Of a stretch of DNA of 64,000 nt, positions 3,791 through 52,310 are shown in pieces. The notes beneath the pieces are model-generated. The model made no database searches and was not told where the DNA came from. It saw only the letters and a list, made by a program, of their open reading frames with translations. The stretch comes from Zopfochytrium polystomum (lineage: Eukaryota; Chytridiomycota; Chytridiomycetes; Chytridiales; Chytridiaceae): assembly GCA_025765615.1 (NCBI GenBank), contig JAIVFJ010000242.1, forward strand, positions 1 through 64,000, read 5' to 3'. The translations under genes and the position numbers were made by a program. Positions within the stretch are counted from its first letter, which is position 1; the number at the start of each line of letters is the position of its first letter.

Positions 3791-3812
3791 GTCTCTCTGC
3801 CTCTCGCTCTCC
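3729..3812. repeat. CT microsatellite upstream of modular gene 1
   Basis: Nearly pure (CT)n grading into CTCTGT and CTCG variants, about 280-360 bp upstream of the minus-strand start at 3451. It reads as a GA tract on that gene's sense strand. Similar tracts lie upstream of most of the secreted-protein genes in the window. Confidence 0.9.

Positions 3813-4335: not shown

Positions 4336-4339
<4 letters not shown>

Positions 4340-4380
<41 letters not shown>
4340..4380. repeat. CT microsatellite beside the transposon
   Basis: About 20 uninterrupted CT units ending some 55 bp before the left end of the Tc1/mariner-type element. Confidence 0.9.
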
Positions 4381-4382
<2 letters not shown>

Positions 4383-4435
4383 TGCACGCCTCCAGAGCGT
4401 GGAAGAGGGAAGAGCGTCGCGTGACAGAGTATTTA

Positions 4436-4676
4436 CAGCAATCTCCCTTAAACCTTGGTTTCCACGTCGCTTTGGTGGTGCAGTTACAACAAAGTTCTGA
4501 CGTGATTGCATTGCATTTGCATTGCAGTCATGCTGCTGATACTGTGCAGTTTCTTGCATCGCAGCAGTCTGTTTTCGGAGGTTGCCAAATTGAGACTTTC
4601 GCCACCAGAGGTCACCCACCGCCACCTTCGCGCCTTCCTGCCTCCACCGCGCCCTCACCTCCGCTGCGCCTCCACA
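4436..4676 (+). repeat. Left terminal inverted repeat
   Basis: Pairs with 6951-7194 in inverted orientation with only scattered mismatches. It ends just before the ATG at 4691, so it must contain the promoter and leader of the plus-strand gene. Confidence 0.88.
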
Positions 4677-4690
4677 GCCCTCAAAAACAA

Positions 4691-5887: not shown

Positions 5888-5893
5888 CAACCT

Positions 5894-6930
5894 TTATTCT
5901 GTGTACCCCGCATGACAAATAAATCCCATTGCCATTTCTCTCGTAATGACATCGCAAACCATCAAAATTAGATCATGGCGATCATAAAGGTCGTGGAGGT
6001 GTGTTTCAAATCGGCGGAGCTCAGCTTTGATGACTGAGAACGCCTCTTCAATGGGGTTGAGAAATGGGCAGTATGGGGGAAGATAAACCAATCGCACACC
6101 ACAATCCATGCAAGCTTCGTCAACTCGATGATCATGGTGAATTCGTGCGTTGTCCAGTACGATAACTTCACCCTCGTTCATTGCTGGTAGCAGCACATGA
6201 ACAACAAAGTCGAGGAAGTTGTCAGCAGTGGCAGAACCGTCAACCGTGCAACTAGCCCGAATTCCAGACGCACCCAAAGCAGCAATCAGCGTCGTGCTCT
6301 CGCCGCGAATGCCCGTCTGTCTTACCAGAGCCCGTGTACCGCAAGGAGAGTAGCCGTATCGCCTGTTGAAGCTTTTGTCATCGACTCTGGTTTCGTCAAC
6401 AAAGACAGACTCGCTGCCAATCAGTTCCTCATCCATCAAGCGATGGAAGCCGGCAATCGCCTCTTCAGAACTTTGTGTGAAGTGAACAGACAGCTTTTTG
6501 GAGAATAGTATTGAACTGGCGTTAGATATTGTAAGAATAAGCAGGGAGAACAGGTATGATCCAAGCATACCTTTTTTCTTGTGAAACCGAGGTATGTTAA
6601 GCCTGCTTGTACCACTTTCATGGATACTGCGTATCTGAGCCGCTCCGACAGCCTGCCTGCTATCTCATCCTGATGCATCTGGGGCCGCTCACAGATAAGA
6701 TCTTCAACAAAGTCCAAGTCATTGCGCGTGAGGGACATTGGACGTCCACTTCCAACCGAGCAAGGGGCTGTATGTGTTCCCCACTTCTCATACGTAGTCA
6801 AAATGTTCCTCACAGATTGCTCGCTGATTACGAAACGTTCAGCCAGCTTCTTCATTGTCGGGGCATCGGGGCTGTGGTAGCTGGTGTACACTCGTTCACG
6901 AATCTGGTTGGAGATGCGTTTGCCTCTCAT
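5894..6930 (-). CDS. DDE transposase, Tc1/mariner/IS630 superfamily
   Basis: Two exons on the minus strand, 6930-6571 and 6493-5894, with a 77-bp phase-0 intron (GTATGC...AAG); product 319 aa, usual for the family. The N-terminal part (about 1-100) holds helix-turn-helix DNA-binding segments (MKKLAERFVISEQSVRNIL, then the GRPMSLT linker). The catalytic part shows the DDE_3 pattern: first Asp in FVDETRVDD, second in VLDNARIHH, and the Glu in PFLNPIEEAF, with 34 residues between second Asp and Glu (DD34E). It would cut and paste the element into TA sites in the nucleus. The frame is complete and no catalytic residue is missing. The start at 6930 lies just inside the right terminal repeat; the same frame stays open upstream through the repeat. 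Confidence 0.93.
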
Positions 6931-6950
6931 CGCTGTGGAGGATGACGGTG

Positions 6951-7194
6951 GTGGAGGCGCAGCGGAGGCGGTTGAGGGCGTGGTGGAGGCAGGAAGGCGC
7001 GAAGGCGGCGGCGGATGACCTCTGGTGGCGAAAGTCTCAATTTGGCAACCTCCGAAAACGGACTGCTGCGACGCAAGAAACTGCACAGTATCAGCAGCGT
7101 GACTGCAATGCAACAGCCATGCAATCACGTCACAACTCTGTTGTAACTGCACCACCAAAGCGACATGGAAACCAAGGTTCAAGGGAGATTGCTG
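6951..7194 (-). repeat. Right terminal inverted repeat
   Basis: Inverted copy of 4436-4676. It contains the leader of the minus-strand transposase gene. Confidence 0.88.
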
Positions 7195-12975: not shown

Positions 12976-13057
12976 CGTCCTGCACAGGATTCGAACCTGC
13001 GCTCCCAAAGGGAAATGCCTTAGCAGGGCACCGCGTTAACCACTCCGCCAACAGGAC
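12976..13057 (-). tRNA. tRNA-Ser(GCT)
   Basis: The reverse strand folds as an 82-nt class II tRNA. The acceptor stem GTCCTGT pairs with GCAGGAC with one G-T pair. The A box (GGCGGAGTGG), anticodon loop CTGCTAA with anticodon GCT, a long variable arm and an intact T-loop (GGTTCGAATCC) are all visible. It reads AGC and AGU codons. A defective copy lies 1990 bp to the left. Confidence 0.93.
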
Positions 13058-14916: not shown

Positions 14917-16700
14917 GATGTCTTGGACTTTGTCAACCCAAAGAGTATCCAACGAGTCATCCACACTCATGCCCCCCTCCACTGCAGATCCTCGTCATGA
15001 TCTCGCCGATTGCTTCCCCGGCTTCTTCCCGCCGCTGCCGGCAGCGGTGACACCGCCTCGCGTACCCTCCGCTTTCTTCGGCCTCGCCGCAGTGGCGGCG
15101 GCAGGCTTCCGTGCGGCGGCTGGCGAGGTCATCCCGGCGGTCTTGGCCTGCGTCGTCGTTCCAGAGGTGCCGACCGCCGGCTTCGTCGCTGCGGTCTTTT
15201 TTTTTTTTTTTTTTAAATATTTTCCCCCGTTAGTCACGAGTGTTTGATGTGAAAAGCAACGCATACGGCCCCCCTGCCCATCCTTCGCCCCCGCTTATTT
15301 ATCCCCCTCGCACCTTTCCCGCGTTGCCGCTGCCCTTCCTCCCGCACGTCGCTGTCGCGGGTGGTGCGCGCCGGAACACGTGTTGCCCGGCGGCGGCGGC
15401 GCTGCGGAAGGCGAACCCGTGCTTTTCGCACGCTTCGCGGATGTAGTATTTGGAGAGCTTGTCGCCGAGCTTGAGCATGTCTTTGTCGATGGTGCCGGGT
15501 ATTTGCGCTGTTGAGGGGTAATTGGTGGAGAGGAGAGGGGGTGGGGGGGGAAGGGGGTAGGAGGGCAGGCGGTTTTGTGTGGGGCGGTGGGGTGTCAGGG
15601 GATCAGGGGACTTCAGTGCGGGAGGTCGCCAACGACGTTTCTCCAAAACAATATTAATTCTCCCTCTCCTCCAACCTGAGCCCCAGTCAATCAGCTCCGC
15701 CTTTCCAGTTCGATACTATTTCCAAAAAAGAAAGTGGATCATCAGTACTTCAGCCCACAGGCCCCAACACCGGCCCCTACGCACTCCACCGACGACGACG
15801 ACGACTCAACTGGCTTCCCAGGAACCTGCTCCTTTTCCGTGATCCTAATATTTCCAGGATGAATGTCCGCGTGAACGTATCCAACCGACTTTTCGTGCAG
15901 CTTGGCCTGCTTGTAAATGTTTTCGCTGAGTTTGGGCTTGGCCGCGTTGGCGGACGACTTGTCGCCGGCGGCCTGGAACTTGCGGCGTGCGGCGGGGTCT
16001 TTGGCGGCGGAGGGCGACGTAGTCGGAGAGACCCTTTTCGCCGACCTTTTTCTGCAGCATGGAGTCTTTCGAGACGGAGATGAGCTGGCCGGCTGGGCGT
16101 TATGATTGTTTCAAGGATTTTTTCAAGTTTAGTTTCGGTGGGAGTTAGGTTAAGTTAGCACTAACGGGTGACCTAAGAACCCAAACAGACATCAAAGCGA
16201 ATACCAGCGCGTGTCGCAGCCACCTCGTGGTCGCCCCACTTCTTCCCAGGCTTGAGCGTCTTGTATACGGCGTCGTACTTTTTCCCATCAAGCGTGGCAC
16301 TGTACGCATCGCCCGTAGTGTGAACTTCGCTCTTGTACTCGGGACCGATCTAATTATCCCCAGTCTGACGAGTAAGAGTGCGGCGGACGGGAGTATTGAA
16401 GGGGGGAGCGCCGGTACCTTTGCGAGGACGCCGCCGACATTCTCGATCCGTTCAGGGGCGCTCGACTGTTTTCTCGCGGGTGGGATCGGGGGCCTTGCGG
16501 CGGCGAACGGAGCGGCGGCCAAGAGGAGCAGGGCGAGGAGGGCGGTAGCGGCTACAAAGGCGAGCGAGCACGCGACTGCGGATCGGCGGCAGGCAAGGCT
16601 GTGGCAGGCAGCGCGGCGGCGGCGGAGTGCTGGGAGAGAGGAAGAACGGCTCGCCGGCGGCGGCGGCGGCGGGAACCGTGGTGAGGTGCCAGAGGCCATT
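14917..16700. repeat. Segmental duplication, copy 1
   Basis: About 1.8 kb related to 21306-22990, with near-identity over the first 1.1 kb, including non-coding parts and the ATCCACACTCAT leader block. It carries the whole minus-strand kinase-like gene. The two copies are 6.4 kb apart in the same orientation. Confidence 0.88.
14995..16699 (-). pseudogene. Secreted/anchored kinase-like protein, copy 1 (frameshifted)
   Basis: Exon 1 starts MASGTSPRF at 16699 and carries a strong hydrophobic segment (ATALLALLLLAAAPFAAA), a signal peptide or anchor. The next exons hold features of a protein-kinase-like fold: GDAYSATLDGKKYDAVYKTLKP with a candidate ATP-binding Lys, HEVAATRAG with a candidate helix-C Glu, then AGQLISVSKDS, and VGYVHADIHPGNI, which fits the H-x-D-(4)-N catalytic loop of ABC1/APH-type kinases. 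Later exons encode MLKLGDKLSKYYIREACEKHG and a Lys/Ala/Pro-rich tail. I see no clear DFG. Against copy 2, one G is inserted near 16015 (GGAGGGCGACG versus GGAGGCGACG), which puts the catalytic loop out of frame. The copy is therefore broken unless the base is a sequencing error. Substrate unknown. Confidence 0.5.
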
Positions 16701-22350: not shown

Positions 22351-22982
22351 TGTGGATGTTGTAATTGATTTTACGGGGGTGAAACACGGCATGGGAGGCG
22401 GCGAAAACAACAGAAGTAAAGGCCAAGATCGAAAATACCAGCGCGTGTCGCTGCCACCTCGTGCTCTCCCCACTGCTCCGTAGGCTTCAGTTTCTTGTAC
22501 ACAGCATTGTACTTTTTCCCATCGGTGGAGGCTCTGTAGGCGTCGCCCGCCATGTGGACTTCGCTCGTGTATTCGGGTCCGATCTTATTTAGCGCGCCAG
22601 TTTGAGGGGAATCTGAGAGGTAAGCGTGAGGGCCGGACGGGTGTGGGACTTGGGAAAGAATGGGGGGGAGTTTCGCCAACGGAAGTACCTGGGCTCGGAC
22701 GCCGCCAACATTCTCGATGCGATCGCGGGTGCCCGGCGTAGGGCTCGTGGGGGGGCTCGCGGGGCGAGCGGCGGCTCCGGTGAAAATCAGGAGGAGCAGG
22801 ACGGTAGCGATGGCGGCAGACGCGAGCGAGCGAGAGACGGTGAATCGGCGGCAGGCTCGGCGGGAGAGTGCCGGCAGAGAAGAGGAGGAGGACGAGCCGA
22901 TCGCGGGCGAGCGGGGTGTGGCCGGCGGCAGGGGGGGCGACGGCGGCGTCGTGGCCGGCGGAGGCCCAGGTGGAGCCATCAT
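21400..22982 (-). pseudogene. Secreted/anchored kinase-like protein, copy 2 (catalytic loop deleted)
   Basis: Exon 1, 22982-22689, begins MMAPPGPPP and has a membrane segment (ASAAIATVLLLLIFTGAAA). Exon 2, 22583-22439, encodes IGPEYTSEVHMAGDAYRAS and YNAVYKKLKPTEQWGEHEVAATRAG. Exon 3 starts at 22332 with AGQLISVSKDSMLQKKVGEKGLSDYV and stays in frame through SAAKDPAARRKFQAAGD, where copy 1 is shifted. About 150 bp is then missing, removing the H-x-D-(4)-N catalytic loop, and the frame runs into former non-coding sequence and stops after DPLSFWK. Downstream exons (KLGDKLSKYYIREACEKHG; Lys/Ala-rich tail) are intact. It is kinase-dead as read, but could still make a short secreted protein. Confidence 0.5.
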
Positions 22983-23672
22983 TCGTTGAGGTTGGGGGGA
23001 AGGGGGGAGGTGGGGGCTGGGAAGATGTGCTTCGCCCGCCATCATGCAGGGCGCTGCGCGAGCACTGGCAGTTTCGCATCCTGCCAGCCTGGGTTGGGTG
23101 GAAGACCGGAGCCGAACCGAGCGGAGCCGGAAGACCAACCATCCAGTGTCAATCTTGTCTCTCCCTTTGTTTGTGACAGGGCGGAACAAACTTTGTGTCT
23201 GTGTCAGACCATTTGTGTGTCAGTCTCAACATCTACTGTATGTCTGTCTGTCTGTCTGTCTGCCTGTTCGTCTGCCTGTCTGTCTGTCTGTCGAACAAGA
23301 GCGGCCTGCCGCATTCGGGTCCCCGCCGCCTTTGCGCAGAGAAAATAGCTTGAAGATATGCGCTGACGCCACACAGTGATCATGCCGTTTTGCCGGTCAC
23401 TTGCTTCTTGCTAATACGTGGTCCTGCCGAGGAATTTGTTTTTACTTGACGCTGCCAGTTGGCGGTCGATCCAGCGTGGCTGGGCCGGAACGACGTCAGA
23501 ACGACAAAGGGGTGCTGGGCATGACCTTGTCCGCCTCATGGCTCGTCCGACGGATAGATAGAAGGCATGCATGTCATACAGGGTGTTGGGGTTAGTATGC
23601 ACATCCGTGATTGAATGCTACCTGAGCCAGGGTCAGAGTACCGGCCGAGGCCGAGTAAGTGGAGCGGGGAGT
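22983..23672. other. Intergenic, with CTGT repeat
   Basis: No gene supported. A (CTGT)n tetranucleotide array lies at about 23240-23292. Confidence 0.5.
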
Positions 23673-24030
23673 AGTGACGCAGCTGCACAATTGCGATCAA
23701 AGTCGTCAGTCAGTTCCCTTCGTACTTGATCGGAAAATGAACCATCACCCGATTCTCCGCGTCATGTAACGCGGACCGAAGCTTTTCCCTTCTACTTCTA
23801 TTAATAATAATAATAATAATAATAATAATTGTAAGATCAATTCCATCACCCAGTACAAATTGAAAACGGGGACGCGCAAAGTAGTCGGCGCGGACTGGAG
23901 CGGATTTCATTTCATTTCATTTTTTTTTCTTTTTTTTTTTCTTTCTCCCCTTGTTTTGTTTTTTTTTCTTTCTTTCGTTTGGCTTTCGTTTCGCTTCTCG
24001 TCGCAAAGGGGGGTCGGGCGCGGGAAGCCA
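23673..24030 (+). repeat. Dispersed repeat R2, copy 1
   Basis: Nearly identical to 53303-53665 apart from the length of an internal (AAT)n array, 23800-23829 here, and the TTTCATTTCATTTC/poly-T part. The block includes GATCGGAAAATGAACCATCA and ACGCGGACCGAAGC. I see no coding frame or terminal repeats. Confidence 0.88.
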
Positions 24031-24290
24031 ATCCGACGGGCGGTCAACGGGGTGTGGGTTATCGACAGGCAGGCGCATCATAACCAACCCCTCTTCCCCT
24101 CCTTCAAGTCGTTTTTCTCTCTCCGTCGTCTCTTTTGATTCGAAAAGCGCAATACGCCCCCCTTCCCGCGACGAGCTGTCTTCGAAATTTAATTTTGACG
24201 TGTCAGCGAGCGGGAGGCACCTGCGCCTATTGCGCCGACAGACACGGAGACACGCAACACCAAACGCACACACACACACACACACACACT

Positions 24291-24314
24291 CTCTCTCTCT
24301 CTCTCTCTCTCTCC
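24291..24314. repeat. CT microsatellite
   Basis: (CT)n after a (CA)n run (24268-24290), about 320-360 bp upstream of the start at 24632. Confidence 0.85.
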
Positions 24315-24631
24315 CCCAAGAGGGTGTCTTCTGCGGTCAAATTCATCCAAATGCTCTCGCTCGTGAGTTCTCGCAGGAGACAGCGAGCTCAACATCAAGC
24401 TCTCCCCTCACGGTGTGGATGCCACTGGGAAGCTGGCAGTCAACTCAGCAGTGGCTGTCTTCACCTAATTCCCCACCCTCCCCCGCCATAAATACGCCCG
24501 CTTCCCTCGCTTTCACCACAGCAACCAACAGCACTTTGCAACTCTCCATCTACAAAAGCGTCCCATCCCGCTCACCCCTCTTGCCGATCAACCAGCGCGC
24601 CCAAAAGCTAAAAAAAAAAAAAAAAAAAAAA

Positions 24632-24943
24632 ATGCACCCGCCCACCCTCCACACCCTCCTCCACACCATCTTCCTCCTCCTCACGCTCCTCGGCGCCACA
24701 ACCGCCACCCGCTCGCGCTCCGGCAGCGCGAGCAGCGACGGTTCGATCGGCGACTACAACCGCGACAGCTTCATGGGGACGCCGCCAAACAGCCCGCAGG
24801 CGAACAACCACAACCACAACAACAACCATCACAACAACAACAACAACGACAACAACCACCACAACAACAACCCGTCGCACCGCCCGTCGGCGCTTTCGAG
24901 GAACGGAGCGGCCAAGTCGAATCACAAGCCGACGAGGCACTGA
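24632..24943 (+). CDS. Small secreted protein, SGS-STIGDY family, member 2
   Basis: Single exon, 103 aa. The signal peptide is MHPPTLHTLLHTIFLLLTLLGATTA. The mature part starts RSRSGSASSDGSIGDY and contains NRDSFMGTPPNSP, then an Asn/His-rich low-complexity stretch and a basic end. The ATG follows a run of more than 20 A directly (24610-24632). A TATA-like CATAAAT lies about 145 bp upstream. The core motif is shared with 18924 and 26483, while the tails differ completely (Asn/His here), so the motif is probably the functional unit. Not recognised as a known family. Confidence 0.78.
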   Translation: MHPPTLHTLLHTIFLLLTLLGATTATRSRSGSASSDGSIGDYNRDSFMGTPPNSPQANNHNHNNNHHNNNNNDNNHHNNNPSHRPSALSRNGAAKSNHKPTRH

Positions 24944-25931
24944 ACAAGACGCTGTTTCCTTTTCTGGTTGTTTTCTCCCCGCACTTGGCGTTCTCTTTCT
25001 GGATTGGCAGTATTCCCATCCCATGACCCACCCTCCCCCTCTCCTCCACATCCTAGCTGCTCTTTGGTTGGAGCAGCTCCAGCCTTTACCTGTTTCCGGC
25101 GCTCACTTTTTTGGTGCAAACGCCCACCACCCGATCCCTTTCCAACAAATACATATTTCTCTTGAAGCATTGCCGCGCAAGCCCCTCCGGGCGACGATAG
25201 ACATCTCCCCAGACGCACTCGCACTGCAGTCTGAGGATGGGCCCAGGCCCGTAGAAATTTGTTGCAAGTAAATCAGACTGAGAGGAAACTCGCGGCGAAG
25301 GCGCCAGGCGCCCAAGCGACTCGCCGTTTCCAACCAGAACGAAATTTTAGGGGGGGGGAAAAAAAGGGATACCTGGGGGAACGCACTGTGCAGTATGAAT
25401 CCCTGGTGGTGCTTTCTTCACAGTCTCAGCACCTCACGGAACGTGGCCAATCAATCTTCCCTATTATGCAATGTCGAGCTTTTTATCTGCCTCCCTGTCC
25501 TTAGACATTTGTAGCAAGTTCATCAGACGCGCCTTCCGGAGAACACAACTTGCTGCGAAGGCGGCGAGCAAACAACCCGTCGCCGCTGCTTCACGTCTTC
25601 TCTACCAACCCAACCCGAACGAAATAGAAAAAGTAAGGGAATAGCCAGGGGATCGCGGTGGAAGAATTTCAAATAAAAGCAAGTAGCTTACTTTCTCTGC
25701 TGCTGTGCTGTCTTCTGTTTTTCCCTGTTTCGGGAAGCCAAGTAGTTTGCCCTCGCGCAATGACATATGTGGGTTGTTTGTTTGATTTGATTTATGGAAC
25801 TGCTTTGTCTGCCTGCCTGTCTTCTGGTTGGAAAGGCAAACAGTCTCGTGCACGAAAAGGTATTAATAAATTTGCGCGACACAAACACACCAACACATCA
25901 TTATTGCTCTCCGTCTGTCTGTGTCTCTCTC

Positions 25932-25936
<5 letters not shown>
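24944..25936. other. Intergenic region
   Basis: No supported gene. A short partial repetition, TTTGTAGCAAGTTCATCAGAC versus TTTGTTGCAAGTAAATCAGAC (25257 and 25507), suggests a small local duplication. Confidence 0.45.
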
Positions 25937-25964
<28 letters not shown>

Positions 25965-25967
25965 ACG
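25937..25967. repeat. CT microsatellite
   Basis: (CT)n about 515-545 bp upstream of the start at 26483. Confidence 0.85.
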
Positions 25968-26247
25968 CTGTCTTCTGCCGACGCCGCCGCGAAGGCGTCC
26001 AAACAATGCCGGAGACAGCCAAGCGGAGTCACGAAAATGGAAAGCGGCCAGGCGGAAAAAATAGAAAAAAGAGAAAAACGAGAAGAAAACGCAAAGAAAA
26101 CACGACACCAATGAAAAAAAAAAAAATTGCTGCTGCCTCTTCTTCGTTTTCCTTCTTCTTCTTCTTCTTCATCTTCTTTCTTCCCCTTCAGCCACCGCCC
26201 GACGAAGGCACCTACAACACCTCCCTCATTGAGGGAAGGGTGGCGCG

Positions 26248-26293
26248 CACTGGACTGGACTGGACTGGACTGGACTGGACTGGAGTGGACTGG
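26248..26293. repeat. Pentanucleotide TGGAC array
   Basis: About seven tandem TGGAC units, one of them TGGAG, roughly 190-235 bp upstream of the start at 26483 and just 5' of its TATA-like box. Confidence 0.9.
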
Positions 26294-26328
26294 GACGACC
26301 ACCTGGCTGTCTTCCAAAACCTCTTCGC

Positions 26329-26335
26329 TATAAAA
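26329..26335 (+). promoter_or_regulatory. TATA box
   Basis: TATAAAA, 148-154 bp upstream of the ATG at 26483; position conserved with the two paralogs. Confidence 0.55.
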
Positions 26336-26482
26336 ACCCTCACCAACGGTTTCCTCGTTTTTCACTCCCCAGCAACCCAGCAGCGAGCGCTCCTTCCAAA
26401 GAATCACTTTCAGATCGTTCCCAGCCCAGCCGCCCATCAATACTCTCCAAACAGGAAAGAAAAAAAAAAAAAAAAAAAAGAA

Positions 26483-26797
26483 ATGTCCCGATCCCCGTCC
26501 AGCGTCCTCGTCCTCCTCTCTCTCTTCCTCGCCCTCCTCCTCTCCCTCGTCTCAAACCCCAGCCTCGGCGTCGCGGACGCGCGTCCGACGCGCTCGCGCT
26601 CAGGCAGCGACAGCACGATCGGCGACTACGACCGCAACAGCTTCACGGGCAGCCCGCGCAGCAGCAGCGGCAGCAACCCAGGCAGCCCGCGGGCCGGCGC
26701 CGTGCACCACCACCCGACGCCGCCGCAGAAAGTGAACGAGGTGAGGCCGGCGGAGCGCGTGCAGCACCACCCGCCGCGACACCACCGCCGTCACTGA
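26483..26797 (+). CDS. Small secreted protein, SGS-STIGDY family, member 3
   Basis: Single exon, 104 aa. The signal peptide is rich in Leu (VLVLLSLFLALLLSLV) and ends near GVADA. The mature part starts RPTRSRSGSDSTIGDYDRNSF, then TGSPRSSSGSNPGSPRAG and a His/Pro/Arg-rich tail. The start is preceded by a long A run (26460-26482). Same core motif as members 1 and 2; intronless like member 2. Predicted secreted, disordered, His-rich; a metal-binding tail is possible but unsupported beyond composition. Confidence 0.78.
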   Translation: MSRSPSSVLVLLSLFLALLLSLVSNPSLGVADARPTRSRSGSDSTIGDYDRNSFTGSPRSSSGSNPGSPRAGAVHHHPTPPQKVNEVRPAERVQHHPPRHHRRH

Positions 26798-33185: not shown

Positions 33186-35343
33186 ATGCCCTCCTCTCCT
33201 TCGTCGTCGTCGTCCGCATCGACGCCAAAGCAGCAGCAGCCCCTAACGCCGCACGCCAGCGCCGCCGCCGTCGTTGCCACGACGCCCGTTCGCCCGCTGG
33301 ACCTGGTCGTGTTCCACGGGCGCGACAGCATCTCGCTCTTCATCAAGGCCGTCGAGGCGGCCTCGGTGGTGCCGCGGCTCGACGCGCCGTTCGACCTGCT
33401 GTGGACGCACGCGGGCATCCTGGTCGACCACTCGGTGCTGCCGCTGGACTGCCTCGAGGTGCGGTGCTTTTCTGTTCTTTTGCCGTGTTTTGGAATGATC
33501 CACCCCACCCGCCGCCGCAAGTAACACTTCCGATTGCCTACCTTGCAGGAGGGCAAGATGTACATCAATGAGAGTGTCATGGCGGGCGAGATCGCGGGAA
33601 TTACATGTGAGGCGGGGAGGCAGAGGGAGTAAGGGCGTGCGATCGCGCGGAAAGATGCCGCGGTTGCTGCGCCCCGCTAGGGCGCAATTGCTCTCTGACC
33701 GTTCCTTGCATCGCCTCTTCTTCCCTTTTGAAACAGATACCAAAGTTACAGCCGTGGATCACGTCGTGCCAAAAGGTTCGATCGTCTCCTCCTTCCCTCC
33801 CCACCTCCATACGAGCCATCCCCTAAAACCCACCCCCCGCCCCCCCACCCCCAACACAAAGGCAGCTTCCGCCTCGGCCCGCAGCTGCGCCTCTTCTCCT
33901 CCGTCTGCGCCGAGACCGTCGGCGACATCGCCGTGATCCCGCTCCATCCGTCCGCCCGCGCCGCCCTCTACTCGCGCGGCCTCGACTTTATCCGGTCGCG
34001 GCTCCTCGCCGTCCACGCGCGATACCACAACTTTGGGTACCCGATGAACCCGCTGGAGGTGCTGGCGTCCGCGACGCCGTCGCTGTTCGCGGCGCTCTCG
34101 ACGGTCAAGCAGCGGGCGGAGGCGCTGCTGAACCTCGCGCCGCCGAAGAAGCAGAGCGTGTTTTGCTCGGAGCTGGTCGCGCTGGTGCTGGCGGAGCTCG
34201 AGGTCGAGGGGTTTGCGAAGCCGGTGGAAGTGAAGCCGGTGGAAGTGAAGCCGGCGGCGGAGGCGGCGGCGGTGGTGGTGGAGGCCGGGGACGCGGAGCG
34301 GTCCGCGGGGCCCTCGGACGAGGCGGGGAAGGCGCCGCCGACGCCGCCGCAGCCGGTGTCGGCGACTAACCCGATCGCGGAGCTGTTTTCAAAAGCGACG
34401 TCGCTGCTGTCCTTTACGTCGCGCGACGCGGGGGGCGCAGACGACGACGTCGAAGCAATACCCGCTGCGCCGGACGCGACGTCGTGGCACCGGCGCAACC
34501 TGTCCGCGGCGGAGATCACGCCGCTGGACATGCAGACGAGCCCAGCGTACCGCGGGTCCGCGGTGCTCTTTGCGCGGGTGGGCGAAGCCGTCTACCTCGT
34601 CGGGCGGCACGGCGCGGACGTCGTGACGGTCTCCTGGACGGCTCTCGCGGCGCGACTGCCCGCGCTGCGGCCGCTGCCTTCCCCGGAGCTGTGGGCGCCG
34701 GTGACGGGCGGGGTGGTTCCGCGCGGGGCAAAGTCGGCTGGGGAGGACGCGGCGGGCGGGCCGCTGTGCGTGGGGAGGGTGAAGCTGGGCGGCACGATGC
34801 AGGTGGGGTCGACGGGCGCCGACGGGGTGCTGAGCGTGGCGTGGGACGGGGTCGAGGTGCGCGTGTCGTTTGACCACGAGGTGTTGCGGGCGTGGGACGG
34901 GTTTGTGTGGGTGCTGACGAGCAACGGGAGCGTGCCGGAAGGCGCGCTGCAGGGCGGGGTGGACGAGGAAGGGAGGGTGAGTTGTACAGGTCTCGCTCTC
35001 TCCGGTATCTCTGACTTGTTCGTTACCCCGCGAACAGCCCCTTTACATTGCACGCGCGACAGTCAGCGAGCGATGGGCGTTCAGCACCCCGACGGAAAAG
35101 GCGTACTGCGTCGGCAAGACAGCGCCTCACATTGGCGGGGCGGCGTTTGGCTGGAAGGGCAAGGAGGTAAGAACCTCGTCCACCACCCACGCTTTTTCGT
35201 TGTTGCGCTCCTTATCGTAATTCTTTCCCCCATTCTCAACGCGAAATAAAACCGTAAAAAAGGTGATTGTGCGGCGCGACTACGAGATCCTTGTCACCCA
35301 CACGCTGATGCGGTGGGCGTTTTCGCTGGGCAGGTCGGAGTAG
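33186..35343 (+). CDS. YiiX/NlpC-P60-like protein with C-terminal DM9 domains
   Basis: Exons 33186-33458, 33549-33606, 33737-33775, 33862-34976, 35038-35166 and 35263-35343 form a 564-aa frame. Residues about 35-260 fit the permuted papain-like NlpC/P60 fold of the YaeF/YiiX type: DLVVFHGRDSISLFIKAVE, a conserved His in LLWTHAGILVD, a GDIAVIPL strand, and the Cys in QSVFCSELVALVL. This suggests a cysteine hydrolase or acyltransferase. A Pro/Ala/Glu linker with VEVKP repeats follows. The C-terminal part (about 440-564) looks like two DM9 (DUF3421) repeats: GGPLCVGRVKLGGTMQVG ... DHEVL and RPLYIARATV ... KGKEVIVRRDYEILV. DM9 repeats occur in lectin-like, mannose-binding proteins. No signal peptide is visible. 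One donor is GTTCGA. The domain pairing is unusual as far as I know. Confidence 0.72.
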
Positions 35344-39978: not shown

Positions 39979-40049
39979 TGCAACAGCCGGGAATCGGACC
40001 CGGGTCTACCGCGTGGCAGGCGATAATTCTACCACTGAACCACTGTTGC
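39979..40049 (-). tRNA. tRNA-Gly(GCC)
   Basis: The reverse strand gives a 71-nt cloverleaf: acceptor GCAACAG with CTGTTGC, A box TGGTTCAGTGG, anticodon loop with GCC (CTGCCACG) and T-arm CCCGGGTCCGATTCCCGG. The T-loop has TCCGA where TTCGA is usual (T55 to C), which also weakens the B box. It is otherwise intact. Confidence 0.85.
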
Positions 40050-41189: not shown

Positions 41190-41261
41190 AGGCCGCACCC
41201 GGATTCGAACCGGGGTTCCCAGAATCAAAATCTGATGTGATAACCCCTACACTATGCAGCC
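41190..41261 (-). tRNA. tRNA-Gln(TTG)
   Basis: The reverse strand folds as a 72-nt tRNA: acceptor GGCTGCA with TGCGGCC (one T-G pair), A box TAGTGTAGGGG, anticodon stem TCAGA/TCTGG around loop TTTTGAT with anticodon TTG, and T-arm CCCCGGTTCGAATCCGGG. It reads CAA. Confidence 0.93.
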
Positions 41262-44350: not shown

Positions 44351-47300
44351 ATGCACCGCCTCCCCACACTGCTTTCCCCCCTCCTCCTCATCCTCCTGCT
44401 CTCGATCCTCGCCCTCAGCTTTCCCACCACCACAACCATCCTCAGCGCAACCGCCTCCCCGCTGCCCAACTCCTTCCCCACCGACCCGCACCTCCGCCTC
44501 GACTTCGCGCCACCCACGTCCCCGGCCCACCTCCTCTTCGCCCGCGGCGCGACGCCAGCCATCACACAAGACCCCACGGTTCTCCCGTCGCCGCCGTCTC
44601 GGCCCATCGGCCTCCGTTTCCGCTTCCGCCGCCGCACGATCGGGCTGCGCGGCGCGCGGCAGGCGTGGCGGCCTCACCGGCGGGCGGCGGCGTTCCGCGC
44701 GTCGATGGCGGGGTCGCACGAGGTATCGTCGGCGGAGGCGGTAGTGGATACGGAAGCGGTGGGCGACGGAGGGCAGCGGTCGGTGCGGCTGGTGCGGCGG
44801 TGGGGGTTCTTTGACAGGATTTCGAACGCGTTCAACAGTTGAGTTGCGACTTTTCCTCCCCATTACCGGTTTTCTTTTGCGCGCCGCGTTGTGTGATGTA
44901 CGCGCGTTGTGCTTGTGTGTGACTGTGGACAGGTTGGAGCTGAGGGAGTGGTCGCGCGTGAGCGCTTCACTTTCATCTTTGACACGTCGCTGGAGGGCTC
45001 TTGAAGGGGCCACTCCACCACGGTCAGCGGGTGGTGTCTCACTACCTTCTGTGTCTCCCGCCACCCTCTCCCTCTTCCCCGCCACCCATCATCCGCGCTC
45101 GCACTTTCTACGCGCCAACCAGGCGCTGTCAACACCGTCCGGAGCGGCGTGCAGAACGCCGTCCAAAAGGTGCAGAGTGGAGTCAACAATGCGGTCAACT
45201 CGGTCAAGAACGTGGCGCGCACCGTCAGCAACGGCTTCAGTTGAGTGGCACCAAAGGCGTCTTCTTCCCCAACCGGGTTGATCTTCATCCCCTCATACTA
45301 CGCCCAACACACTCCTCCCCTTGCAACAACCCCACCGTCAATAGGCAATATCAAAAACGCAGTGAACAGCGGGATCGCGAAAGGAATTAGTAAGTCGACG
45401 CTCCCGACATTCCCACCCCGCGGTGTTTTCACTTTAGTTTTTAGTTTTCATTCTTCCACTGAAACTCTGATTCTACAAATACTTCTCCTGTTCACCTCCT
45501 CAGGCGCCGTCAGTAATTCATTCTCGAAAGGTGCGGAGAGACTCATACCTTTTTCCCTCAAGGACCAAAAACTCACTCTTCGACTGAAAAATGATCTTTG
45601 AACCATGGCAAACCGACAGAGGCGCTATCGAATGCGCTCAACAAAGTGAAAGACTTTGGGGGTAGGCGGGGGTTGGCCTTTTGTTAAAACAAAATATTGG
45701 ACTAGCTCACAAGTCTTTGCTCACTTTTCCCAGCAAAAGCCATGGACAAAGTGAACAACGCAATGGACAAAGTGAACAACGCCATCAACTCCGGAATCGG
45801 TAAGCCTCCGGTCCCTCCCCTCGCGCCCCCCCTTCCCTTCCCAAGCATTCCATTAAGCTTCCATTTCTCTCTCAAGACTACGCGGTCGACAAGATCCCGA
45901 TGGGCGACGCGGCGCGTTCCATCACAAAGTCGCTGATCAAGGGGGTCCGCAACGGGGCGGCGAGCGGCGGGCTGCTGGGCGCGATCGCGGGCGGGTTCGC
46001 CGGGGTCGCGGACAACGAAGTGGTCAAGGAGGCGGTGAGCAACGTCGTGCACAAGATGGCGGCGCAGGGCGGCGTTCTGGGTGAGTGTTGTTGCTCGTTT
46101 GCGGGAATTGTTTTGTTCGTTTGTCTCGTCTCAAACCGAATCCAACCTACGTACTCTACAGGCAAGATCGGCAACGGGCTCATTGACGCGTCCAACAACG
46201 ACTTTGTCAAGGGCTTCGTCGGATCTGCGGTGCACGGCCTCGCGAACGGCGGGCTGAGAGGAATGGCACTAGGTGAGTGGAATGCGACCCTCCCGCCCAC
46301 CTCTTGATTCCTTCGCTGACCCCCCACCCCCCTCCCCCTTTACCGCAGGCCTCGGCACCAGCGACATTGCGCGCAACCTGGCGCAAAAGGCGATCGACAA
46401 GGCGGCGGAGCACGGCGGCCCGCTGGGCGACGTGGGGCGGTTTGTGAAAAAGGCCGAGGACAACGAGGCGGTGCGGTCGCTGGGGAACGCGGCGTTTGAG
46501 GCGGGCCGGAACGGCGGGAAGCCGAAAGGTGTGTGTGTGTGTGTTTTTTTATTGTTTTATTTTCTCTTCTGTTTTCCTCTCCTTGCTTATCTGGGTTTAA
46601 CTCTTCTCCCCCGCAAACAGCGATCCTCAAGAGCTTTGCGACGTCGGACGCCGTCGTCGGCCTCGCGTCGTCCAAGGCGCGGTCGGTGCTCGAGTCCAAG
46701 GCCAGCAGCGGTGGATTCATCGGTACAGAAAAAAAAAAAAAAAAAAAAAAAAGATATTTCTTACTTCGAAGCCGCCAATGATATTAACGCACGACTCTCT
46801 CCGCCGCACAAAACAAACCAGGCAAGCTCGCGTCAAAGTCGCTCGCGCTCGCCGACAACCCGAACGCGCGGCTGCTTGCGAGCAGCGCGGCGGACGCGGC
46901 GCGCGGCGGCGGCGGGGTCAAGGGGTTCGCAAAGAACCTCGCAAAGTCGGACGCGGCCAAGGCGCTGGCAGGCGCGGCGGCGGAGAAGCTGGCGGCGTCG
47001 AACCCGGCGGGTGAGCGTGTTGTTGTTGAGCGCTCCTCTTTTTTTCTTTTCTGTTCTTTGAGCACCCACACACGCACACGCACACACTCACACAACCTCA
47101 CGTACGCCCAGTCGCGAACCTCGTGTCTCAGGCGCAGCAGCTCAAGGGCGCCGCGTCGGCCGCGCTGTCGGGCACGCCGCTGGCCGCCGCGCTGGCGAAT
47201 AGCGGGGCCGCCGCCGCGCTGACTGCAAAGGCGCGCGGCAAGGCCGAAGCCGCCGTCGGCGGGCTGCTGGGCAAGGCCGCCGGGAAGCTGGCGGGGGCCG

Positions 47301-47656
47301 GAAATAGCGGCGGAAGGAGCGGCGCTGCGAAAGCGCTTTCGCGCGGGAACGGTGGGGCGTCCCGGTCGGCGCCGCGCTCGTCAAGGTCGTCGCGGCCGTC
47401 GCGATCGTCTCGATCGTCGCGGTCATCGTGGTCGAGTCAGCGACGACCGCAGGGCGGGAGCCGGAACCCAGGGACCAAGACGACGCCGCAGGCAAAGCCA
47501 AAGCCTAAGGCGGCGACAGTCAAGAAGGGTGAGCGAGGGTCATCGTTTAGACTCACGTGTGAGCCGTTATATGGAGTGCGGGAAATGCTAACCCTCGACT
47601 ATTTTTCACCAATTCGCGGAAACAAAACAAAAAAAGCAACGGCCCGCAAAAAGTAA
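44351..47656 (+). CDS. Secreted modular amphipathic-repeat protein 2
   Basis: Thirteen exons: 44351-44837, 45123-45239, 45345-45389, 45504-45530, 45620-45661, 45734-45799, 45877-46080, 46162-46272, 46349-46528, 46621-46722, 46822-47010, 47112-47528, 47637-47656. Every intron is phase 1 and the joined frame is open for 668 aa. Exon 1 has a signal peptide (MHRLPTLLSPLLLILLLSIL) and ends RSVRLVRRWGFFDRISNAFN, with a dibasic site. Exons 2-3 are the same 117-nt and 45-nt modules that are repeated at 0.8-2.6 kb. Exons 7-11 are Ala/Gly-rich modules (for example GLLGAIAGGFAGVADNEVVKEA and AILKSFATSDAVVGLASSKA). Exon 12 ends in a Ser/Arg-rich then Lys-rich basic tail. Predicted secreted, helical and amphipathic. 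No known family; role unknown. Confidence 0.82.
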
Positions 47657-48284
47657 TACTGCAAGCAGATGACCCAACCGTTCACAACTTTCGGCGGATT
47701 GGGAATCGACGCGGTCAAGGCATTTAATTTTCCCATTTTGCGCGTCTCTCCGCTACCGCTTCTCCTCAAATTGATTTTTCCTCCCATATTGCCTCGTTTT
47801 TTCCGCCAAACCCGACTATGCGAAAAAATCTATTTGGCCAATTAGTGGCTCGCATGTTCATTTTTTTTTTTTTTTTTTTCCAATTTACCTTTTCTTTGCT
47901 TGTGGCGCGCCTTTAGTTTTTTCTTTTTCCCAGCCTGGCTTTTTGTGAGAGTTTTCTGTTGCGTAAAACACTTCTTCTACGCGACTTTGCTGTGCCGCAT
48001 TAAACGGCAGTAGCACACCCCCGTAGTAGTATGAGGGAGCAGGTGGGGGGCGAGAAGGGGAGCGAACGAACAAGAGCTTTGTTTGATGAAAGGAAGAGAG
48101 GGAGGTTTGTTTTGCCCACGAGGGTGCTTGGAGAGAGTGTTGTGTAGAAGAATGAGAAAAGCGAAGGTCTCCAAGTTATCCGATTCTTGGTTAACGAAGA
48201 GAAATAATCCCCAAGAGCGAGCAAGCGAGACACAACACACAGCGAGACACAACACAGACGCGCACACACACACGCGCACACGCG

Positions 48285-48315
<31 letters not shown>

Positions 48316-48464
48316 TTTCGCCACCCGCACCGCAGACACCGAAGCGAGCGAGCGACACACAAGCAAAGAGCAGCACAATTCGTTGTTCGTTGTTCGTTGT
48401 TGTGTCAATGTTGTTGTGTCAATGCGTACCACGTGCGTTCTTTCTTTGGTGTCGGCGGTCTCTG

Positions 48465-48519
<55 letters not shown>

Positions 48520-48812
48520 GTGTTTGCGTGTGTGCGTGTGTGCAAAAAAAAAAGAAGATAAAAAAACAAAAACGTACACACACACAAACAAACAGGCAAA
48601 CACATAAAATCGGACAGAACCAAAAAGGGGAAATAGAACTAAAGTAAAAAAAAAACGAAAAAAAAAAAAACAGGAGCAGCACCAGCTGCAGCAGCACAAC
48701 AACAACAGAGACACACAGCACCGACCGACAACGCCAGGCGTCGACGCCCTCGACTCAGGACCACGACGCGACGACGCACCGCACCGCTCCCTCCACCACC
48801 ACCACCACCACC
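47657..48812. other. Spacer between paralogs, microsatellite-rich
   Basis: Contains poly-T (about 47858-47880), CA/CG-rich alternating sequence (48255-48315), a CTCTGT/CT tract (48455-48520) and poly-A runs (48640-48670), ending in a CAC repeat just before the ATG at 48813. No gene of its own. Confidence 0.6.
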
Positions 48813-51800
48813 ATGCCCTGTCCGCCAAGCGGCTCCTCCTCCTCCTCCTCCTCCTCCTCCTCAGTCACCACCAGCTGTGGTCACCGCAGCCTCCGCAACC
48901 ACCACCGTGTCCTCGCACTGTCATCGTCTGTCGCCGCCGCCGGCACTCTCACGCTCCTACTTCTCCTCCTGCCCCCCATCCTCATGTCCTCCTCCTCCTC
49001 CTCCTTCTCATGCGGCGTCGAGGCGGCTCCCATGCTGCTGCCACTGGCGCCGCCGCCGCCGTCGGCGCCTTTTGTGGCCCACGGCGGCAGCGGCGGCGAC
49101 GGCGACGGCGTGAGAGGTGCTCCATCCGGTGTCTCTGGCACCGTAGACGATGCCAGCAGCAGGGACGGCGACGACAACGACAACGACGTGGAGGAGGAGG
49201 AGGAGATGCGTGAGACTCCTCGTCATGGCGCTTTGCGTCCGCTGTTTGTCGCCGTTGCCGACGACGATGAAGATGACCATCCACTGGGTGTCTTTGGTGG
49301 TGCTGGCGCCGCCGCCGCCGCTGGTGCAAATCCGATCTCGCCGCCGCCGCCGCCGCCGGCGCCTTCTTTGTCTCTCGACCGCGGCATCGACAGCAGCATC
49401 GACAGCAGCAGGAGCGATCTCTCGCAGGCGGAGGAGGAGGAGGATGATGATGAGGAGGATCGCCGTCGTCGTCGTCGTCGTCGTCGCCCTCGAGGTCGTC
49501 GTCCCAGCAGCGAGAACGTCAGCATTGCTTTGCGTCTGCGGCGCCGCGGCCTTTGGGACCGCATCAAGAGCAAGGCCCACGACGTCGGGAGCAGCGTCTC
49601 GGGTGAGTGAGTAGTGAGCTGAGAGACAGTAGAGAGACAGACAGTGAGACAGACAGACAGTGAGAGCGTGCGCCAGACAGACAGACGGACAGACAGGCAG
49701 ACAGACAGACAGACAGTGAGAGAGTGCACAGATGAACGGGGAGGCACCCCTTTAGGGTGTCTCATGTTGTGCACAACGCCTTGGTGTGTCTCGCGGGCGA
49801 AAACCCACTCACTCCCTTACTCACGAACAAATACAAATACTTTCCTCCCCTAACCCTCCCCCGCCACACTGTGACGAAAGGCGCCGTGCGCTCCGCCGCC
49901 AGCAGTGCCGTCGACGGAATCGCCCACGGTGCTGGTAAGCCAGGAAGCAATATGCACTCACTGGAAACGCGGGCCGCTGACAGATTTCTATCCGGCCTCA
50001 CAGAAAAAGTCGCGGCAGCTGCGTCAGCGGTGAACGATGCCGCCAGTCGAGTTGTCGGTAAGGTCCTCTCCTTTCTCCTCTAGCATGTCAGGGCTCTTCA
50101 TCAGATCGCTCGTTCGGCACCCCGTTATTACCACTTAAAAAAAAAAAAAATGACGCAAAACTAAAGACCGCGCCGCAAGCTACATCCCGCCCACGGCAAG
50201 GAGCATTGTGAGCTCGGCCATCGACGGTGCAAAAGGCGGCGCGATGGGAGGCGGGCTGTACGGCGCCATTGCCGGAACCGTCGCGGGCGTGCTCGACAAT
50301 GACCACGTCAAGAACGCGATGCGAGCGCCCGTCAAGCATCTGTTCCAGGGAATGGCGTCAAAGAGCGGGGTGATCGGTGAGTTTTTCGTGTTCGCTGATT
50401 GGGGCGACAAGTAAGATCCGCGTCGCGGAGACTGAATCTTGTTGGGAATTTCCTTCTTTTTTTGTCACTTGATTACGATAGGTTCTCTTGGTCGCGGGCT
50501 CCTGTCCGTTGCGCGCAACAAAAAGGTTCAGGACCTCACTCACTCGGTGCTGTCGGGCGCAAAGACCGGTGGCTTCAAAGGCATTATCGCGGGTAAGTGT
50601 TTGGCCTCAATTTTTAGTCTTCATTGGGGACGCGGGCTTCAATTAATCCCGCCTAACGTCGGACGTGAAACAAAAATTCAAGGCGTCGCCACAAGCGACA
50701 CCGTCGTCGGCCTCGGAAAAAGTGTGGCAAAATCTGTTGTGGATAAGGCAGCCGCGCAAGGTGGGCTCCTCGGCGACATTGGCAAGACGGCTTTGGACAT
50801 TTCGCGGAACGGAAAAGTGCGCTCGCTCGCTTCAGCAGCGGTTGATGCGGCCAGGAGCGGCGGCGGAGCAAAAGGCTTGTCACATTTTTACTTTTCGATT
50901 CCACCGTTGGAGATTCGGTTAGTTCGGCCGAGCGAGAGAACTAATTCGGGCTGCTCCTTCGCCTTTCCCATAGGAATCGCAAAATCGTTTGCGACCTCGG
51001 ATGCCGTGATCGGCCTCGCAGGGTCAGAGGCAAAGTCTTTCCTCCGCGACCGCGCCAAAAGCGGCGGACTCGGCAGTTGAGTTTCACATTCGCACACCGC
51101 ACGCCCTTGCCTTCGAGGTCGACAACAAAGTTGCTTAAACCTCATTTCCCTTTTCCACGTTGAAGGTTCGCTCGCGATGAGAGCTCTCGACCTCGCCGAC
51201 AACCCCAAGGCGCGAGCGCTTGGGAGCGGTCTTGCCGACGCTGCGCGAGGCGGCGGCGGGCTCAAGGGCATGGCAAAAGGGTTTGCCACTTCGGACGGCG
51301 TCAAGTCAGTGCTCAAGTCGACGGCCACGGACTATTTGCGCAGCAAAGCACAGGAGGGCGGGACTGGCGGTAAGCCTACTTTTTACTGCCAACATTCTTG
51401 CGGGAGAGGCTAGCACCTGCGACCACGCCCTAACACAGCTGCATATCAGGCTCGCTCGCGCTCCGCGCCCTCGACCTCGCCGAGAACCCGAAAGCGCGCG
51501 CACTAGCTGGTGGTCTGTCCGCCGCCGTGGCCAACCGAAAGAGCGGCCTTAAGGGAATGGCCAAGGGCTTTGCGACTTCAGACGCCGTCAAGTCCACTGC
51601 AAAATCAATGGCGAAGGACTACATTACGAGCAAAGTGGGAGACCTTGGCGCTGCAGGTATGAACAGCGGATGGCCCTTTTCTGTGCTTGGGAGTGTGAAA
51701 GAGTCCCATCTTCTGTAGACACACATGCACCACACACTCCCTATGGCAGCTACTTTTTGTCGTCGCAAACTCACCTTCCAACAACAACCCAAAAAAAAAA

Positions 51801-52310
51801 AAAAAAAAAAAAAAATAACAAAAAAAAAATAAGGCGACCTCGCCAAGACCGCCCTCAACGTCGCGGGCAATCGCAAAGCGCGCGCAGCTGTCGCAAAAGT
51901 GGCCAAGGGCCTGAAGCGGCAGGTCGCTTCTCGACAAAAGGGCGGCAAGGCAGGCAAGGCCGGCAAGGCCGGCGGGAAACGGCGGTCCTCGCCAAAAGGG
52001 CGGGAAAGGCGGCAGTAGCGGCAGGGGCGTCGCCGGCGCTCGGCCAAAGAGCGGAAAGAGCGGCAAGGGCGGCGGCGGCGCAAAGTCTCAGCGGGGCGGG
52101 ACGCGTGGCACTGGGGGAGCACAAAAAGGTGAGAGAGGAGGGAGGTCTAAGTACGTTTCTGACGGGCTATTAACATTCTTAAAAGCTGGTGCACGGAAAG
52201 GCACCCGCGCAAAGTCGACCGGGCGGTCGGGGACAGGGACGAGGTCGTCGAGGCCGTCGACAAGGGCCAGTGGGGGATCCCGCAGCAAGTCGGGAGGAAG
52301 GCGAAAGTAG
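48813..52310 (+). CDS. Secreted modular amphipathic-repeat protein 3
   Basis: Exons 48813-49602, 49881-49934, 50004-50057, 50167-50376, 50482-50592, 50683-50874, 50974-51075, 51166-51369, 51450-51656, 51834-52128, 52186-52310; all introns phase 1. Exon 1 has a Ser-rich start, a hydrophobic segment (AAAGTLTLLLLLLPPIL), an acidic Asp/Glu-rich part and the dibasic motif RLRRRGLWDRIKSKA. Later exons match gene 2 one for one: 50482 with its 111-nt exon, 50974 with its 102-nt exon. Exons at 51166 and 51450 are near copies of each other (LALRALDLAxNPKARAL). The intron after 50874 is GC-AG. Exon 51834-52128 is 295 nt, one base out of frame. As read it stops at a TAG near 52018; with one base less it would run into the basic tail ending GGRRK. 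Function unknown. Confidence 0.75.
49626..49714. repeat. GACA tetranucleotide array in intron 1
   Basis: Interrupted (CAGA)n/(GACA)n sequence within the first intron of modular gene 3. Confidence 0.85.

Follow-up and report, generated by a model that had tools for sequence, protein, structure and literature searches.

A family of putatively secreted, helical-repeat proteins encoded by phase-1, frame-neutral exons

Frame-neutral modules bounded by phase-1 introns are the textbook mark of animal extracellular proteins. The three genes described here (genes 1-3) lie in bases 1-64000 of contig C242, hereafter the window, in a genome of 761 contigs (80.16 Mb) that was searched as a whole. With the animal class 1-1 modules they share phase-1 flanking introns and exon lengths that are multiples of three, as well as exon boundaries that follow structural units, here in a Gly-Gly half of the protein and with a register that shifts between exons. 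Unlike the animal modules, those of genes 1-3 are predicted alpha-helical repeats, and no unrelated host protein carrying them was found in the genome. A class 1-1 review links phase 1 to glycine-rich boundaries and signal peptides, and asks why exon shuffling is restricted to Metazoa (PMC8001218).

At the protein level, the closest described systems are the exchangeable apolipoproteins, apolipophorin III, synuclein and perilipin-4, which have in common 11- or 22-residue helix repeats and a length varied by repeat number. Amphipathic helix repeats of 11 or 22 residues were found in the N-terminal half of gene 1, in gene 3 and in three relatives elsewhere in the genome (C163, C4a and C4e). The window genes score below the Pfam cut-offs and differ further in having phase-1 exons, a Gly-Gly unit and a pro-region with Arg-Arg, three features that, to our knowledge, are not found in apolipoproteins, apolipophorin III, synuclein or perilipin-4. 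Perilipin-4 is described as having 33-residue repeats, being unfolded alone and coating neutral lipid (PMC5889406). By description, the exon architecture of the window genes is like that of aphid bicycle genes, reported to have numerous internal exons that are exceptionally small and share a phase (PMC9168663), and of cassette effectors, in which miniature exons are described as contributing the parts attached to a common signal-peptide region (PMC7495047). The Kex2-processed repeat proteins (KEPs) of fungi, as described in PMC6339444, share repeats and a dibasic site after a leader; unlike KEPs, in which repeated peptide cores are separated by several dibasic sites, the window genes have one Arg-Arg ahead of the whole array. 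A KEP identity was rejected, as no further KR or RR occurs before mature residues 484 in gene 1 and 424 in gene 2, and none at all in gene 3.

Gene models were rebuilt from the sequence letters, which returned the exon coordinates and lengths given by an earlier, sequence-only reading of this DNA and yielded 34 modelled introns over the three genes. The exons are as follows.

44351-44837, plus: gene 1 exon 1, hydrophobic leader, pro-region, Arg-Arg and mature start (WGFFDRISNAFN)
45123-45239, plus: gene 1 exon 2, 11-mer helix module, 117 nt
45345-45389, plus: gene 1 exon 3, module of 45 nt
45504-45530, plus: gene 1 exon 4, 27 nt
45620-45661, plus: gene 1 exon 5, 42 nt
45734-45799, plus: gene 1 exon 6, 66 nt
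45877-46080, plus: gene 1 exon 7, Gly-Gly repeat region, 204 nt
46162-46272, plus: gene 1 exon 8, one repeat unit, 111 nt
46349-46528, plus: gene 1 exon 9, two repeat units, 180 nt
46621-46722, plus: gene 1 exon 10, one 34-residue repeat unit, 102 nt
46822-47010, plus: gene 1 exon 11, two repeat units, 189 nt
47112-47528, plus: gene 1 exon 12, Ala-rich part and basic Ser/Arg/Lys tail, 417 nt
47637-47656, plus: gene 1 exon 13, terminal exon with stop, 20 nt
48813-49602, plus: gene 2 exon 1, hydrophobic stretch and long, acidic, quickly changing pro-region followed by RRRGLWDRIK
49881-49934, plus: gene 2 exon 2, 54 nt
50004-50057, plus: gene 2 exon 3, 54 nt
50167-50376, plus: gene 2 exon 4, 210 nt, matches gene 1 exon 7
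50482-50592, plus: gene 2 exon 5, 111 nt, matches gene 1 exon 8
50683-50874, plus: gene 2 exon 6, 192 nt, matches gene 1 exon 9, GC donor next
50974-51075, plus: gene 2 exon 7, 102 nt, matches gene 1 exon 10
51166-51369, plus: gene 2 exon 8, two repeat units, 204 nt
51450-51656, plus: gene 2 exon 9, 207 nt, copy of exon 8 at 66% identity
51834-52128, plus: gene 2 exon 10, 295 nt with early frame closure, 285 nt in C276
52186-52310, plus: gene 2 exon 11, basic Ser/Arg/Gly tail with stop
3181-3451, minus: gene 3 exon 1, leader, short pro-region, RRGLFDDISNGFS
2751-2939, minus: gene 3 exon 2, 11-mer repeats, 189 nt
2459-2560, minus: gene 3 exon 3, 102 nt
2287-2331, minus: gene 3 exon 4, 45 nt
2048-2167, minus: gene 3 exon 5, cassette copy, 120 nt
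1871-1915, minus: gene 3 exon 6, cassette copy, 45 nt
1677-1793, minus: gene 3 exon 7, cassette copy, 117 nt
1509-1553, minus: gene 3 exon 8, cassette copy, 45 nt
1310-1426, minus: gene 3 exon 9, cassette copy, 117 nt
1144-1188, minus: gene 3 exon 10, cassette copy, 45 nt
934-1048, minus: gene 3 exon 11, 115 nt in both haplotypes, frame lost
742-790, minus: gene 3 exon 12 remnant, stop at 783-781
622-650, minus: gene 3 terminal-exon remnant, like gene 1 exon 13

Gene 1 (44351-47656, plus) comprises 13 exons and 668 codons; all 12 introns are GT-AG and in phase 1, and each internal exon is a multiple of three. Gene 2 (48813-52310, plus) has 11 exons with introns 1-9 in phase 1, intron 6 using a GC donor instead of GT in both haplotypes. 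The second haplotype copy of genes 1-3 lies inverted on contig C276. Exon 10 of gene 2 is the exception to the length rule: at 295 nt in the window it closes the frame early and leaves intron 10 in phase 2, while the 285 nt of the C276 copy are a multiple of three and bring gene 2 from 9/10 to 10/10 phase-1 introns. Gene 3 (minus, start at 3451) has phase 1 in introns 1-10 of its 12. At 115 nt in each haplotype, the length of its exon 11 is not divisible by three, and translation therefore stops at 783-781; past the stop lie a remnant exon and then a terminal exon resembling that of gene 1. Gene 3 is thus truncated in both haplotypes. Small length differences between the haplotypes interrupt a reading frame at three places: on C276 in exon 1 of gene 1 and exon 2 of gene 3, and in the window in exon 10 of gene 2; these differences (44351-44837, 2751-2939 and 51834-52128) may be either assembly errors or real. 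On C276, extra DNA separates genes 1 and 2, by an estimated 5 kb or so (about 1100-4791 within C276:23500-33000), and by eye its open reading frames (ORFs) resemble a retroelement, with a reverse transcriptase and a recombinase-like end.

Phase-1 symmetrical exons, the core of the sequence-only reading, were thus recovered in all three genes. Its further claim of identical exon lengths in the paralogs was confirmed for the 111-nt pair (gene 1 exon 8, gene 2 exon 5) and the 102-nt pair (exons 10 and 7); the remaining matched pairs of genes 1 and 2 are unequal (204/210, 180/192 and 189/204 nt). As a background, five chaperonin genes (TCP1 family) of the same genome were used. Anchor peptides picked 31 junctions, of which 30 were clear by a set rule and one was ambiguous and dropped; three of the 30 have weak splice scores (1.34, 1.34 and 2.08). 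These introns fall 14/10/6 into phases 0/1/2. Genes 1 and 2 together have 22/22 introns in phase 1 with gene 2 intron 10 taken as in C276, or 21/22 by the window's own letters, against 10/30 in the chaperonins (Fisher p = 2.6e-7 for 22/22). The introns in this test are not independent, since exon duplication copies phase; with the six sites judged common to genes 1 and 2 merged, the count is 16/16 (p = 5.8e-6).

Base composition proved insufficient as the cause of the phase bias. Random placement of introns after any G would put a share of 0.40 in gene 1 and 0.49 in gene 2 into phase 1; the corresponding shares are 0.35 and 0.53 for sites flanked by G on both sides, and 0.15 and 0.36 for sites within AG|G. 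Among the 21 introns of the phase analysis, the split codon starts with G in 17 and with A in 4. Nine of the 34 modelled introns begin GTTGAG, which in phase 1 places a stop immediately past the module if the intron is kept; this holds for eight of the nine, the ninth lying after the frame loss of gene 3.

An independent test of the exons was provided by the differences between the window and the C276 haplotype. In gene 2, 15 of 1134 sites differ in exons 2-9 and 86 of 1104 in all introns (Fisher p = 1.9e-14); exons 10 and 11 were excluded from the count because of the frame break. The 15 differences are distributed 1/0/14 over the codon positions, 14 being synonymous and one not, and the haplotypes are separated by no indel in these exons and by 31 in the introns. 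This pattern indicates that gene 2 exons 2-9 are under strong purifying selection, and the comparison supports the modelled exons. Exon 1 of gene 2, mostly pro-region, differs at 74 of 696 sites (26 synonymous, 48 non-synonymous), and 16 of its 19 indels are multiples of three, as expected of translated but weakly constrained sequence; its last 70 nt, which start about at the Arg motif, hold three differences and no gap. Gene 1 shows the same direction more weakly and without significance (28/2007 exon sites against 27/1245 intron sites, p = 0.12), with exon differences of 9/2/17 by codon position, 18 synonymous and 10 not, and exon indels of 3, 1 and 18 nt.

Exon duplication is directly visible in two places. 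In gene 3, a cassette that pairs a 117-nt exon with one of 45 nt and includes their two introns repeats every 367-378 nt; four copies of a 155-nt core are 64-86% identical to the reference copy, the Tandem Repeats Finder (TRF) periods are 367 and 371, and introns at the same cassette position are related to one another. In gene 2, exon 9 is a copy of exon 8 with 66% identity. Module copies join in frame because each piece starts and ends in phase 1. The architecture grew at least partly by exon duplication within one family. The earlier proposal had combined module duplication with exon shuffling; the duplication is supported, and shuffling in the strict sense is not, no module having been found beside other domains among the best candidates. 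Protein searches of the genome itself, judged on the best candidates, found the modules only in the family or in remoter 11-mer proteins. Shuffling between unrelated genes was accordingly ruled unsupported, because no unrelated gene with a module was found.

The modules appear to be helical repeats: 11-mers in the N-terminal half and, in the C-terminal half, Gly-Gly-bounded units some 34 residues long. In the N-terminal half of gene 1, self-similarity is strongest at a lag of 11 residues (z 6.1) with a hydrophobic period of 3.71. In gene 3, where the period is 3.62, the lags are 54 residues (z 14.9), which is the 39+15 residue cassette, and 11 residues (z 10.0). Hydrophobic periods of 3.62-3.71 were found in these two as well as in C163, C4a and C4e, none of 200 or 100 shuffles being as strong. 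A lag of 11 combined with such a period gives the numbers of 11-residue amphipathic helices. The N-terminal part of gene 2 has a helical period of 3.645 (1/200 shuffles as strong). The Gly-Gly half repeats at lags 34 and 68 in gene 1 and 68 in gene 2, and its exons of 102 and 111 nt carry a single unit of about 34 residues, those of 180 to 210 nt two units, the unit limits being set by eye. Gene 2 exon 6 aligns to exon 8 in a shifted register, so that unit boundaries of either kind are occupied by introns. Exons of the 11-mer half do not correspond to a whole number of 11-mers; across the exon junctions of gene 3 the helix register is continuous (7/2000 random offsets as strong, and no uniform shift from -3 to +3 better). 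AlphaFold2 returned only helices for two single exons, at low confidence (pLDDT 66.0 and 67.4, pTM 0.30 and 0.35).

The leader and Arg-Arg motif that the sequence-only reading had described recur in all three window genes and in relatives. A hydrophobic leader, judged by eye, and an Arg-Arg just ahead of the helical part, closing a pro-region at a matching position, were found in 9/9 readable N-termini (genes 1-3 plus relatives on C163 and C4), a count that is not unbiased, because the similarity by which the relatives were detected covers the Arg-Arg region. The motif is followed by a short related start, mostly G-L-x-D or G-L-x-x, and then by helices repeating every 11 or 22 residues; genes 1 and 2 continue with the Gly-Gly-bounded units and a basic tail. 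The eight mature parts examined have no cysteine and a net positive charge, span 92 to 518 residues, and consist of A+G+S+K+V to 49-65%. A proprotein-convertase P-domain was found at three places in the genome.

Relatives occur at seven places in the genome, one on C163 and six on C4 at about 449.8-462.3 kb. All five whose whole frame is readable are intronless (C163, C4a, C4b, C4c and C4e); C4d has frame breaks in the assembly, and the sixth C4 place was read at its end only. Whole-protein searches of the genome revealed no further multi-exon relative among the best candidates. C163 consists almost entirely of 11-mers (lag 11, z 17.3), C4a has an 11-residue lag of z 10.9, and C4e forms an array of proline-containing 22-mers (lags 22 and 44, z 14.7 and 15.2). 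The difference in exon structure could reflect intron loss in the intronless relatives or intron gain in genes 1-3.

The claim that these proteins match no known family was borne out: none of the three window proteins exceeds a Pfam cut-off, and no protein-database match was found for genes 1 and 2 among the best 7996 and 7995 word-sharing candidates scored (database of 5.8 billion). The Pfam result covers gene 1, gene 3 and, for gene 2, the mature part minus the tail; gene 2 and C4c have no Pfam match at all. Gene 3 approaches ApoLp-III (PF07464; 1.2e-6, 29.2 bits, cut-off 36.3) and C4a approaches Apolipoprotein A1/A4/E (PF01442; 1.1e-7, 32.1 bits, cut-off 90), both below the cut-off. C163 slightly exceeds that of Synuclein (PF01387) with 24.5 bits against 23.3, a score that is likely a convergence of 11-mers; no Synuclein match is listed for the window genes. 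In the solved-structure search, C4e had no match, and C163 met alpha-synuclein at E 0.1, which is not informative. The protein-database search with C163 gave two weak matches of 104 and 200 residues; the 104-residue protein, the best match, has a GIFEDIGDAF stretch and C163-like 11-mers. The open-licence literature searched yielded no account of a family like this one, nor of chytrid class 1-1 modules. As far as these database and literature searches go, the family appears to be undescribed.

Taken from sequence, these features lead us to hypothesize that the family comprises basic, alpha-helical-repeat proteins with cysteine-free mature parts, apparently secreted, trimmed by a convertase and coating lipid or other hydrophobic surfaces, a reading to which we give about even confidence. 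The proteins would be secreted through the N-terminal hydrophobic leader, and a proprotein convertase would cut after Arg-Arg. The mature part would be unfolded in water and form a long helix on lipid, wall or another hydrophobic surface, thereby coating it in the manner of exchangeable apolipoproteins, perilipin-4 or synuclein. The leader, the Arg-Arg and, in gene 2, a fast pro-region before a conserved mature part fit a secreted proprotein, and a surface-coating helix is favoured by the physics that the mature part shares with apolipoproteins and perilipin-4. Lipid-binding helix families also figure among the weak Pfam matches, and the convertase P-domain in the genome fits the proposed cleavage. 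The number of modules would set binding strength, and gain or loss of a module would alter length without destroying the protein. That the modules are frame-neutral and helical, so that gain or loss only changes length, would explain why the phase-1 architecture was kept. Possible targets of the coating are lipid stores, the walls of cysts, and the surfaces of prey or hosts.

Several observations weigh against this picture. The weak Pfam matches include unrelated names (Baculo_PEP_C at 6.9e-6 for gene 3, Dynactin for C4b, Ribosomal_L31e for C4e), and the weak list for gene 1 is led by DUF6674 and a coronavirus spike model; such names indicate that the matches reflect helix composition rather than kinship, and we read the apolipoprotein- and synuclein-type matches likewise as the probable shared physics of 11-mer helices, not descent. 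LEA proteins, too, are characterised by 11-residue helices, and C163 weakly matches LEA_4, below the cut-off. Signal peptides and cleavage sites were assigned by eye, and the hydrophobic stretch of gene 2 lies some 40 residues in. The 11-residue lag is weak in the N-terminal part of gene 2 (z 1.3) and in C4c, the weakest relative (z 2.4). No clear 11/3 period is seen in the Gly-Gly half (gene 2, 3.60, with 13/200 shuffles as strong; gene 1, best period 4.195, at the edge of the tested range). Register continuity in gene 1 is not significant (565/2000), four of six uniform shifts beating the true joins. Exons 1-10 of gene 3 show little constraint (26/1083 against 32/1527 in introns; 12 synonymous, 14 not). 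Finally, 11-mer proteins without the Arg-Arg motif exist elsewhere, in pieces on C5 (LEA-like), C64, C82 and C236; in the pieces examined, the repeat frame has no RR-G/S-L/F/V motif, and C145 has neither this motif nor 11-residue repeats. As 11-mer proteins reach past the Arg-Arg family, its limit is not sharp.

Two other functions were weighed against surface coating. The proteins might be secreted protective or structural proteins, LEA-like or of a cyst coat or wall, acting by bulk hydration or coat assembly rather than lipid binding. We regard this as rather unlikely: the LEA_4 match of C163, the Ala/Gly/Ser/Lys/Val-rich composition, the basic Ser/Arg/Gly tails and the LEA-like 11-mer proteins elsewhere in the genome speak for it, but most members have a regular hydrophobic face with a period near 11/3, a feature that LEA proteins nevertheless share. 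Alternatively, helices freed at the Arg-Arg might disturb competitor or host membranes, as antimicrobial peptides or effectors do. Net positive charge and absence of cysteine in all eight mature parts would suit such a role, as would the mature start G-L-W/L/F followed by a helix-forming stretch, which recalls amphibian antimicrobial helices. A glycine-zipper-like stretch, seen by eye in exon 7 of gene 1 and its counterpart, exon 4 of gene 2, and the fast-changing pro-region of gene 2 point the same way. The mature parts are long, however, and the strong purifying selection on gene 2 exons 2-9 is unlike a rapidly changing effector, so we consider membrane activity unlikely.

Two alternatives concern the exons themselves. 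Repeated insertion of one introner-like element at similar sites, instead of exon duplication, could in principle produce a uniform phase and the recurring GTTGAG donor. Yet the best-scoring intron pairs lie within gene 3, between duplicated exons, or join gene 1 intron 1 with gene 3 intron 1, and intron pairs taken from gene 1 alone or gene 2 alone score about as shuffled sequences do (26), with introns 3 and 9 of gene 2 as the one exception (33). The one DNA search made, with a 1001-base stretch of gene 1 that holds introns 2-6, matched only family loci genome-wide at E 1e-3 (the search skips common words) and found no near-identical introns in unrelated genes, giving no support to an introner origin, which we judge very unlikely. 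The models could also be wrong altogether, exon 1 alone being a short secreted peptide precursor that ends at the in-frame TGA of the first donor, with the rest non-coding or another gene. In genes 1 and 3 the exon 1 frame does run into TGA immediately past the donor, but the downstream exons hold frame and repeat pattern, those of gene 2 are strongly constrained across haplotypes, and the GT/GC-AG intron ends are retained in both haplotypes. An exon-1-only gene is hence barely credible, and secreted, surface-coating helical-repeat proteins remain our preferred interpretation.

Other features of the window include further secreted-looking proteins. The adjacent ORFs 23951-24943 and 25658-26797 (plus) form another secreted-looking tandem pair, each ending in a short leader-bearing protein with the common motif RSRSGS...IGDYxRxSFxGxP. 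Two minus-strand ORFs, 16145-16699 and 22371-23189, have hydrophobic leaders and the common motif RIENVGGV, and are without a Pfam match at E 0.01. A DM9-repeat ORF (33933-35246, plus) scores over its Pfam cut-off. A DDE_3 transposase ORF (5897-6568, minus) stands between two opposite-strand ORFs with a common sequence stretch, as if flanked by inverted repeats (4289-7182). Three tRNA genes lie on the minus strand (12976-13057, 39979-40049 and 41190-41261). Elsewhere in the genome, domain searches detected chitin synthase N-domains and flagellar RIB43A domains, which are consistent with a flagellated fungus such as a chytrid but are not proof of one.

Together, our results point to an apparently secreted protein family whose helical modules coincide with a phase-1 exon architecture. 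We tentatively raise the possibility, itself doubtful, that a flagellated fungus independently evolved an animal-style class 1-1 module system with alpha-helical modules, tuning the length of a surface-coating helix; retention of GTTGAG introns could then give a ladder of shorter proteins. With secreted-looking helix repeats in phase-1 exons and intronless relatives in the same non-animal genome, this locus offers a place to test whether secreted glycine-rich proteins favour phase-1 introns.

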